This document shows, piece after piece, positions 9,345 through 10,561 of a stretch of DNA of 10,599 nt (positions are counted from its first letter, which is position 1; every line of letters begins with the position of its first letter). The translations under genes were made by a program, and so were the position numbers. This DNA is from SAR202 cluster bacterium Io17-Chloro-G6 (GTDB lineage: Bacteria > Chloroflexota > Dehalococcoidia > UBA3495): assembly GCA_002816585.1 (NCBI GenBank), contig MUCT01000032.1, positions 1-10,599 of the forward strand, written 5' to 3'. The notes beneath the pieces are model-generated. The model did no database searches. It saw only the letters and a list, made by a program, of their open reading frames with translations, and was not told where the DNA came from.

Positions 9345-9431
9345 GCCGAGGTGGTGAAATTGGTAGACACGCGGTCTTGAGGGGGCCGTGGGCGTAAGCT
9401 CGTGTGGGTTCAAATCCCACCCTCGGCACCA
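9345..9431 (+). tRNA. tRNA-Leu (anticodon GAG), CCA encoded
   Basis: Acceptor arms GCCGAGG (9345-9351) and CCTCGGC (9421-9427) pair fully, followed by discriminator A and an encoded CCA (9429-9431). The D region, TGGTGAAATTGGTAGACAC, is typical for Leu. The anticodon stem CGGTC/GGCCG encloses loop TTGAGGG with anticodon GAG, reading CUC/CUU. A long variable arm marks a class II tRNA, and the T arm is GTGGG-TTCAAAT-CCCAC. Confidence 0.97.
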
Positions 9432-9463: not shown

Positions 9464-9539
9464 GGCGACGTAGCCAAGTGGTTAAGGCGGAGGTCTGCAA
9501 AACCTCTATTCGGCGGTTCGAGTCCGCCCGTCGCCTCCA
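9464..9539 (+). tRNA. tRNA-Cys (anticodon GCA), CCA encoded
   Basis: Acceptor arms GGCGACG (9464-9470) and CGTCGCC (9529-9535) pair fully. Discriminator U is the Cys identity base, and CCA is encoded at 9537-9539. The anticodon stem GAGGT/ACCTC holds loop CTGCAAA with anticodon GCA. T arm GGCGG-TTCGAGT-CCGCC. Short variable loop. It lies 32 bases after tRNA-Leu(GAG) and is probably cotranscribed with it. Confidence 0.97.
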
Positions 9540-9656
9540 AAAACAACGCCCTGTCAAGCACAAATTTAACGGGCGCAACCACTTAGATTGTTACACTCGC
9601 GACCACCACACCCGCTCATCGCCACACTATCGCACCTGCGTACCACACTGTTACAC

Positions 9657-9741
9657 TGTTGACGCCCATATGTTTATCAACACGCGTTTTTGTCAACGCA
9701 TGTGTGTTGACACTAATGGGTATCCTCGTTACGATATATCG
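9657..9741 (+). promoter_or_regulatory. Promoter with overlapping operator repeats for the small two-gene module
   Basis: A perfect -35 TTGACA (9707-9712) is followed, after exactly 17 bases, by TACGAT (9730-9735, 4 of 6 to the -10 consensus), giving a start near 9742. The -35 is the right arm of the inverted repeat TGTCAAC (9691-9697)-N8-GTTGACA (9706-9712). A second weaker pair, TGTTGA (9657-9662) and TCAACA (9677-9682), lies upstream, and a 10-bp palindrome CGATATATCG (9732-9741) covers the -10/start area. Such placement is expected for repression by a DNA-binding protein, perhaps a module product. Confidence 0.6.
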
Positions 9742-9817
9742 ACCTGCGATTACCCACGTAGGCAAGCGGCATATGCCTGCAACACCCAATACTTCGATCG
9801 CGGGAGGAGGGAGCAAC

Positions 9818-10174
9818 ATGGAACGCAAAGTTGTTGTGGTTGGATCGATTTCGGTCTGGCAGCGCGACCAGGGTAAGATGTTTGCTGCCCGATTCGAACC
9901 ACTCAAACTAACCTCGTATGGACGTACCAAGGATGAGGCCGAACGGGCTGTCAGAGAACAATTCAAGCGGTTTGTACACGCCAACCGAGAAATCGGTGTG
10001 CTAGAGAAGCTGCTAGATAAGGTCGAGGCCGAATGGTATTGGGAAGATGAATATCCTTCCGACACCGAGGCTCCAATTGAATACCTCGATGGCCCCGCCG
10101 ACGCGGCGCACGCTGCGTCTAAACCAAAGGGCGGCTACACCCGCGTTAACTCAGACCTAGCTATCGCCGCATAG
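9818..10174 (+). CDS. HicB-like small protein (possible antitoxin)
   Basis: A 118-residue acidic protein. Residues 1-55 suggest a HicB-like fold: strands KVVVVGSISVWQ and KMFAARFEPL, then the YGRTKDEAERAVREQFKRFV block, close to the T-x-x-EA-x-x-A helix of HicB antitoxins. A helix GVLEKLLDKVEAEWYW follows, then an acidic, Pro-containing and probably flexible tail ending in GGYTRVNSDLAIAA. I see no clear helix-turn-helix or ribbon-helix-helix. The ATG at 9818 is fixed by GGAGG (9806-9810) with a seven-base gap, in a very purine-rich leader; the earlier in-frame ATG at 9659 lies upstream of the predicted transcription start. No HicA-type toxin (about 60 residues, GSH motif) is present. It is followed after 2 bases by an unrecognised gene and flanked by tRNA genes. 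Confidence 0.7.
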   Translation: MERKVVVVGSISVWQRDQGKMFAARFEPLKLTSYGRTKDEAERAVREQFKRFVHANREIGVLEKLLDKVEAEWYWEDEYPSDTEAPIEYLDGPADAAHAASKPKGGYTRVNSDLAIAA

Positions 10175-10176
10175 CC

Positions 10177-10404
10177 GTGCAGATTCCATTCGAACGATAC
10201 CGCGCCGAATTGATTAGAGAAGGGCTGCTTGAACGCAGCCCTTACTCATTTTACTACCCCGATAACTCCATGGTGTTCACCCCTGAGGCCGGTCCCGACG
10301 GGATGATTGACCTCGACTTCACCACCGAACAAATCGGTTTATGGTCTCCGGAATTAGCGGAGCGCATCAAAGCCCGAATCCTAGATCAAAGCTCCAGCGA
10401 CTGA
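10177..10404 (+). CDS. Unrecognised 75-residue protein coupled to the HicB-like gene
   Basis: I do not recognise this family. The predicted protein is soluble and acidic: an amphipathic N-terminal helix (ERYRAELIREGLLE), a beta-like middle (YSFYYPDNSMVFTPEAG, then MIDLDF), and a C-terminal helix (SPELAERIKARILDQ). There are no membrane segments or Cys clusters. It starts with GTG only 2 bases after the HicB-like stop and has no ribosome site, so it probably depends on translational coupling; the next ATG would leave only 45 residues. Position suggests a partner of the HicB-like protein, but it lacks the HicA motifs. Codon use looks native. Reality as a gene rests on its tight spacing and protein-like composition. 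Confidence 0.6.
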   Translation: MQIPFERYRAELIREGLLERSPYSFYYPDNSMVFTPEAGPDGMIDLDFTTEQIGLWSPELAERIKARILDQSSSD

Positions 10405-10475
10405 CTAATCTGTTACTCCCCTTCCCTAATAACCGATCTCTCCAAGGCCAAAGTGATGTAACCCCAGCTCGAAAA

Positions 10476-10561
10476 GCCGGGATGGCGGAATGGTAGACGC
10501 GGCGGACTTAAAATCCGCTACCTTTGCGGGTGTGTGGGTTCGAGTCCCTCTCCCGGCACCA
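10476..10561 (+). tRNA. tRNA-Leu (anticodon UAA), CCA encoded
   Basis: Acceptor arms GCCGGGA (10476-10482) and TCCCGGC (10551-10557) pair fully, with discriminator A and an encoded CCA (10559-10561). Anticodon stem GCGGA/TCCGC with loop CTTAAAA gives anticodon TAA, reading UUA/UUG. A long variable arm is present. The T stem GTGGG (10534-10538) with CCCTC (10546-10550) has an internal U-U mismatch (10535/10549), which is unusual. It lies 71 bases after the 75-residue gene with no terminator between. Confidence 0.95.

Follow-up and report, generated by a model that had tools for sequence, protein, structure and literature searches.

The described system closest to the locus studied here is the HicAB type II toxin-antitoxin pair, whose HicB families we take to be PF15919/PF03681 and whose HicA family was represented in our comparison by PF07927. 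The locus is a pair of small genes, A and B, in a stretch of 10,599 nucleotides (nt) of contig MUCT01000032.1 from SAR202 cluster bacterium Io17-Chloro-G6; this whole stretch is called the window below. According to the available part of PMC7180214, HicA has a catalytic histidine in strand 2. Degrons recognized by ClpX at the C-terminus of antitoxins are described in the accessible sections of PMC8165232, namely, Val-Ala in HigA1 of M. tuberculosis and a putative Ala-Ile-Ala-Ala in VapB45, while an excerpt of PMC6191456 places an ssrA-like motif of ParD nearer the N-terminus. Moreover, actinobacteriophage repressors and integrases carry ssrA-like tags in integration-dependent immunity (excerpts of PMC5559632 and PMC4557955). 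When antitoxin C-termini were aligned, no significant consensus was reported in the accessible part of PMC4963847, except for small hydrophobic residues in HicB. In open-licence literature searches, the portions of text returned contained no HicB-like family with ssrA-like tails and no antitoxin tail copying the transfer-messenger RNA (tmRNA) tag of its host.

An earlier note, made from the letters of the window, had described a HicB-like gene coupled to a second gene between transfer RNA (tRNA) genes; the genes, their coupling and the tRNA neighbors were all recovered in this analysis. The elements of the pair are as follows.

9818-10174, + strand: gene A, HicB-like protein of 118 amino acids (aa), ATG start
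10157-10171, + strand: codons for the C-terminal LAIAA of gene A, candidate tmRNA-tag-like degron
10177-10404, + strand: gene B, acidic partner of 75 aa, probably HicA-fold, no histidine, GTG start

The GTG of gene B is placed 2 nt past the TAG stop of gene A. The pair resembles HicAB in its HicB-like core, the probably HicA-like fold of the partner and the tight two-gene layout. It differs in that the HicB-like gene comes first, the partner is acidic and has no catalytic histidine, the HicB-like core is basic in four of seven copies, and the HicB-like protein has a tmRNA-tag-like end. The explanation judged probable, if not strongly so, is that the locus is a small, patchily distributed module derived from a HicBA pair, composed of a HicB-like protein with an ssrA-type degron and a HicA-fold partner.

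The pair recurs in other genomes. Among approximately 5.8 billion proteins, gene A had one relative (P0003, 65% identity) and gene B had one (P0005, 69% identity), and the existence of one homologue of each supports the coding status of both genes. P0003 and P0005 each lie on a contig of 1211 bases, and the first residues of P0005 are readable in a shifted frame across the end of P0003, its final codons and stop included; the two are therefore neighbors with similar coupling, as deduced from the protein letters and not seen as DNA. At E ≤0.01, a two-sequence profile of gene A matched 48 of the order's 247 genomes, and a close pair was present in five of the 247 (L139 in G016, L140 in G204, L141 in G172, L142 in G070, and L151 in G066). 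L139–L142 were the four best profile matches, and L151 had an E of 3e-5. In all five loci, an open reading frame (ORF) of 77–90 aa lies directly 3' of the gene A copy, with a TAATG or TGATG overlap in L140 and L141, an 8-nt gap in L139 and L151, and an overlapping but ambiguous start in L142. Searches of 393 genomes of the class and 250 of the order with a seven-row profile, A3, did not add another close pair; its high scores on the paired copies arise because those copies built the model.

Including the window and P0003, 12 close copies of gene A were found (also L139–L147 and L151), of which seven are paired and five single. The neighborhood survey suggested in the earlier note thus yielded homologues that occur as a pair, and the adjacent genes of a HicAB layout were found in all seven paired copies, by inference for P0003/P0005. 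The single copies, L143–L147, share a common 94-aa protein (open frames of 94–136 aa) with no separate small ORF just 3'. Near position 1501 of these loci, from five genomes, the single relatives carry a WWPAxQYDGD motif and no AA end, and their flanks are similar by eye.

The seven paired gene A proteins end in LAIAA, WAIAA, VAMAA, LLVAA, LAFAA, LEIAA, and YALAA, so that the hydrophobic-Ala-Ala C-terminus of an ssrA-type degron was found in 7/7; the earlier note does not mention this tmRNA-tag-like end. The five unpaired copies end in APGEY, APGEC, APGKY, APGEC, and PATPD. As background, 9 of 907 long non-overlapping ORFs of 80 related loci (L001–L080) end in AA and 3 in [ILVMF]AA; among 42 ORFs matching a HicB profile, the AA ending occurs in two and the [ILVMF]AA ending in none. 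More distant pairs and loci with the HicB-like gene in B-A order were left out of the seven. The HicB-like proteins of the distant pairs end in EVVFA (L192), EEVLVA (L212), and EEVLIA (L231), which are hydrophobic but have no AA, or in AGSR (L225); those in B-A order (L194, L198, L200, and L201) have no AA end. L232 and L233, weak relatives in G066, showed no clear partner. In the predicted structure of gene A, the predicted local distance difference test score (pLDDT) of the tail was 26–32 in the last three blocks, in a model that is poor throughout (mean 46). ClpX was detected above the cut-off in 12/12 genomes and the adaptor SspB in 0/12, with one weak match (E 0.02, G003). As judged from the sequences, the best account of the tail is that it serves the HicB-like protein as an integral degron of the ssrA type. 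Like HigA1 and VapB45, the protein would then be an antitoxin with a hydrophobic C-terminal ClpX degron, and the end of VapB45 resembles that of the window protein; unlike it, they belong to other antitoxin families, and the accessible text on them describes no match to their own tmRNA tag.

In some hosts, the tail agrees with the tag of the same genome. Of the 14 genomes searched for a tmRNA, 10 had a readable tag and four yielded no complete match. L151 ends in NTQEYALAA and its host tag is GNSQEYALAA; L139 ends in AADEPVAMAA and its host tag is GKTSTADEPVALAA, so that ADEPVAMAA stands against ADEPVALAA; and L141 ends in DDERILAFAA, with GERELALAA as its host tag. In L140 (host tag GEREFALAA) and L142 (GNSQEYALAA), the agreement is limited to the final AA. 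For the window and P0003, GEREFALAA, the tag in 5/5 relatives with a readable one, served as a proxy from which the host's own may differ. With this proxy, GREWAIAA of P0003 agrees at three of seven residues upstream of AA and scores equally with GNSQEYALAA; NSDLAIAA of the window agrees at one of seven and obtains better scores with the other three tags. Random peptides of hand-set composition reached the own-tag score in 0/200000 cases for L139 and L151, 0.2% for L141, 11% for L140, and 16% for L142; the proxy-tag score was reached in 0.5% for P0003 and 5% for the window. The pairing of tails with own tags was equalled by 4/120 permutations of the five loci and, with the proxy for the window and P0003, by 36/5040. 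In a pattern search, G066 encoded QEYALAA-stop in two places, the tmRNA and gene A, and G070 in one, the tmRNA; DEPVA[LM]AA-stop had two sites in G016, again the tmRNA and gene A. None of the reversed patterns was encoded. Within the nine residues of ADEPVA[LM]AA, L139 and the tmRNA use different codons at seven, and six of these differences are silent; therefore, it is the peptide and not the DNA that agrees with the tag. In L151, the tail DNA is also close to the tmRNA (3/24 bases differ). The tag of G198, GEREFALAA, was read by eye from an Rfam match as ARAGORN missed it, and the G198 tail is no copy of it.

These ends bear on a reading in which A and B are small genes unrelated to each other, the resemblance to the HicA fold is a coincidence, and the AA ends serve a non-proteolytic purpose such as partner binding. 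This is considered improbable: AA ends occur in 7/7 paired copies against a 1% background, two tails nearly copy their own tmRNA tag, and the pair recurs across a large divergence, with a gene A identity of 27–45% outside P0003.

The earlier identification of the first protein as HicB-like is supported through intermediates. Searches of Pfam, PHROGs, and NCBIfam (without PADLOC) with both proteins returned chance-level rows only, none above the cut-off; searches with relatives in the same libraries gave, for a nuo-operon neighbor, E 0.00085 to UPF0150-like, which is below the cut-off. Gene A matched HicB-like ORFs of the nuo type at E 8e-6 in the ten closest genomes and 2e-5 among 8742 ORFs. 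In seven of the ten genomes, the best match was a nuo-operon HicB-like ORF (E 8e-6 to 0.24); two had matches at chance level and one had none. The 42-ORF HicB profile matched 6/7 nuo-type ORFs at E 1.5e-4 to 0.012 and gene A itself at E 1.6, so that the HicB-like core of gene A is recognized remotely, through the nuo-type intermediates. The first PDB rows for the AlphaFold model were HicB 6g1n and 6g1c (probability 0.44 and 0.38); the sequence alignments A1 and A2 found nothing relevant among PDB sequences. Gene A consists of a HicB core, a conserved W-x-W-x-D segment, a variable linker, and the tmRNA-tag-like end.

The nuo-operon HicB-like ORFs of SAR202 and related genomes are the closest gene A relatives after the paired and L143-type copies, from which they differ in mostly having no HicA-like partner, in showing no AA end among those seen, and in lying in a housekeeping operon. 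Among 17 weaker loci (L148–L150 and L152–L165), 16 have nuoD next, by eye, and one is cut off. As a separate observation, the complex I operon of SAR202 and related Chloroflexota contains one or two small HicB-like ORFs immediately 5' of nuoD (L081–L087, L148–L150, and L152–L165; near position 1501 in most). On the match strand of L218 (1489-2003) and L162 (1438-1964), a HicB-like ORF and, after it, a HicA-like ORF containing a GDH motif lie immediately 5' of nuoD.

Gene B had been described in the earlier note as a partner other than HicA. This has to be corrected, since gene B is probably related to HicA: its fold and the intermediates suggest a HicA that has diverged strongly, with its charge inverted and its catalytic histidine lost. 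In the fold comparison of gene B, the first two VIA rows were 1whz, which we take to be a HicA-family structure, and HicA 6g26. By profile, intermediates connect gene B to HicA, as the partners of the more distant pairs of HicB-like and acidic HicA-like genes (L192, L212, L225, and L231) bridge the window's partner to HicA. In a control with shuffled columns, 1/100 shuffles per target scored as high as the 11-partner alignment (one outlying score near 130); the count was 0 and 1 of 100 for the seven partners and 0/100 for the four intermediates. A point against this assignment is that direct HHalign comparisons of A2, the alignment of gene B, and of the seven partners to HicA were insignificant. 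Gene B is probably a remote HicA-fold protein, as far as the modeled fold indicates. A2 retrieved only the two known proteins in the database search, and across 250 genomes its best hit, at E 0.03, was not convincing; it missed the partners in five genomes of the order that carry one, and gene B therefore diverges too fast for sequence search.

The partners of the window and L142 have no histidine, the other five have one to three, and no histidine column is common to the seven; the catalytic histidine of HicA strand 2 was thus not found in them. Instead of a positively charged toxin as in HicAB, 7/7 partners are acidic, with an isoelectric point (pI) of 4.3–4.7 (4.4 for the window); pI is 4.1–4.7 in 11/11 close and intermediate partners versus at least 9.3 in 29/29 HicA domains. 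The absence of histidine excludes the HicA ribonuclease (RNase) mechanism for the window's protein, and any toxic effect of gene B may, to judge from its sequence, take another route than the HicA histidine RNase.

The net charges of the seven paired gene A cores are +5, +5, +3, +5, 0, 0, and -4, and those of 51 HicB core stretches range from -16 to 0 (median -6). This shift, along with the acidic B in 7/7, would suit reversed roles, in which a degron-tagged gene A is harmful and normally destroyed while a stable, acidic gene B acts as guard. However, the A core of L151 has remained acidic, gene A has no known catalytic motif, and labile toxins are unusual among toxin-antitoxin systems. Reversed roles are thus regarded as having little probability.

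The surroundings of the pair in the window are given below.

9345-9431: tRNA-Leu(gag)
9464-9539: tRNA-Cys
9540-10434: inserted segment flanked by tRNA-Cys on the left and tRNA-Leu(taa) on the right; only the right border placed, approximately
9802-9813, + strand: Shine-Dalgarno-like GGGAGGAGGGAG, just 5' of gene A, read from the sequence
10476-10561: tRNA-Leu(taa)

The MnmA of the window is 80–86% identical to that of ten SAR202 cluster, Chloroflexi, and Dehalococcoidia loci. Genes for tRNA were sought in 18 of the 80 relative loci, and five have all three tRNAs in the window order. The interval from tRNA-Cys to tRNA-Leu(taa) is 936 bp in the window and 126, 111, 182, 94, and 155 bp in these relatives (L001, L002, L006, L007, and L010, respectively). 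As the site is without the cassette in 5/5 relatives with the same tRNA order, the gene pair is most simply an insertion. Homology of the window to the L002 spacer restarts at 10435, which sets the right border. The guanine-plus-cytosine content of the segment is approximately 52–55%, and that of the rest of the window 47–67%, mostly 55–62%. The insertion in a tRNA cluster proposed in the earlier note therefore stands for the window, but not as a general habit: only 1/5 of the other paired genomic loci has a tRNA gene in the 9.5–15 kb fetched around each. No relative of the proteins tried was found in viral, plasmid, and phage collections, so that a phage or plasmid origin is unsupported. The actinobacteriophage repressors are alike in being regulators with an ssrA-like C-terminal tag. 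As far as the excerpts on that system extend, its attP lies inside the repressor gene; here, two short genes, one a HicA-like partner, fill the 936-bp inter-tRNA interval, which leaves no room for an adjacent integrase.

This distribution has to be weighed against a domesticated, non-toxic regulatory pair, in which neither HicA activity nor the antitoxin role persists and the level of the A-B complex reports protease or trans-translation load. The histidine-free gene B of the window, the acidic pI of all partners against the basic HicA domains, and the next relatives of gene A in nuo operons instead of toxin-antitoxin loci would agree with it. In contrast, patchy occurrence (5/247 genomes), the ten closest genomes with only nuo-type or chance-level matches, and an insertion site empty in relatives resemble an accessory cassette; domestication is thus judged rather unlikely.

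Candidate regulatory elements lie 5' of gene A.

9657-9712: candidate operator of repeated GTTGA(C) half-sites, with an imperfect palindrome at 9657-9682 and a perfect-arm palindrome at 9691-9712
9707-9735, + strand: sigma-70-like promoter candidate TTGACA-17-TACGAT, 10/12 matches

The palindrome TGTCAAC-N8-GTTGACA at 9691-9712 overlaps the -35 element. The shared promoter and operator repeats of the earlier note can be seen in the letters of the window, yet they do not stand out clearly from chance: one promoter-like site was found and shuffles give 1.0 in the region, while approximately 9–10% of shuffles of the 140-base stretch equalled or exceeded the half-site count. An operator common to the paired loci was rejected, as 7-base palindromes were present only in the window, L142, and a GC-rich stretch of L139, and the GTTGA(C) repeats were not seen 5' of the other paired loci. 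L142 has a long palindrome, ATTTGTCCAG-N9-CTGGACAAAT, just 5' of its gene A (start near 1474), a candidate operator unlike that of the window.

For the HicBA-derived module with a degron, we infer proteolysis, complex formation, release, and effect as follows. Gene A protein would be kept short-lived by the tag-degrading protease of the host, as if tagged by trans-translation, because its tail resembles the tmRNA tag and such a protease (ClpX in relatives) exists. Gene B, probably made by coupled translation, would adopt the double-stranded-RNA-binding-domain-like fold of HicA, with opposite charge and no catalytic histidine, and be held by gene A. Once synthesis stops, gene A would be degraded and gene B released, to act otherwise than by the HicA histidine RNase. 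A built-in degron would supply the lability needed by a toxin-antitoxin system or a proteolysis-controlled regulator. A bolder extension is put forward only tentatively: the HicB-like protein may imitate the lineage-specific tmRNA tag of its host, in which case the capacity of the rescue-clearing protease would determine how long the protein lasts. Ribosome-rescue load or a shut-off of translation would then be what the module senses, and the partner, with its acidic and histidine-poor HicA fold, would have a new mode of action that is not nucleolytic.

A HicB-like family with ssrA-like ends in its paired members bears on the source of antitoxin lability. With ends that in two hosts are nearly the host's own tag, it offers a direct, testable link between toxin-antitoxin control and trans-translation. 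Moreover, the HicA fold suggested for the partner, without its catalytic residue and with inverted charge, raises the question of which uses this fold may have beyond RNA cutting.
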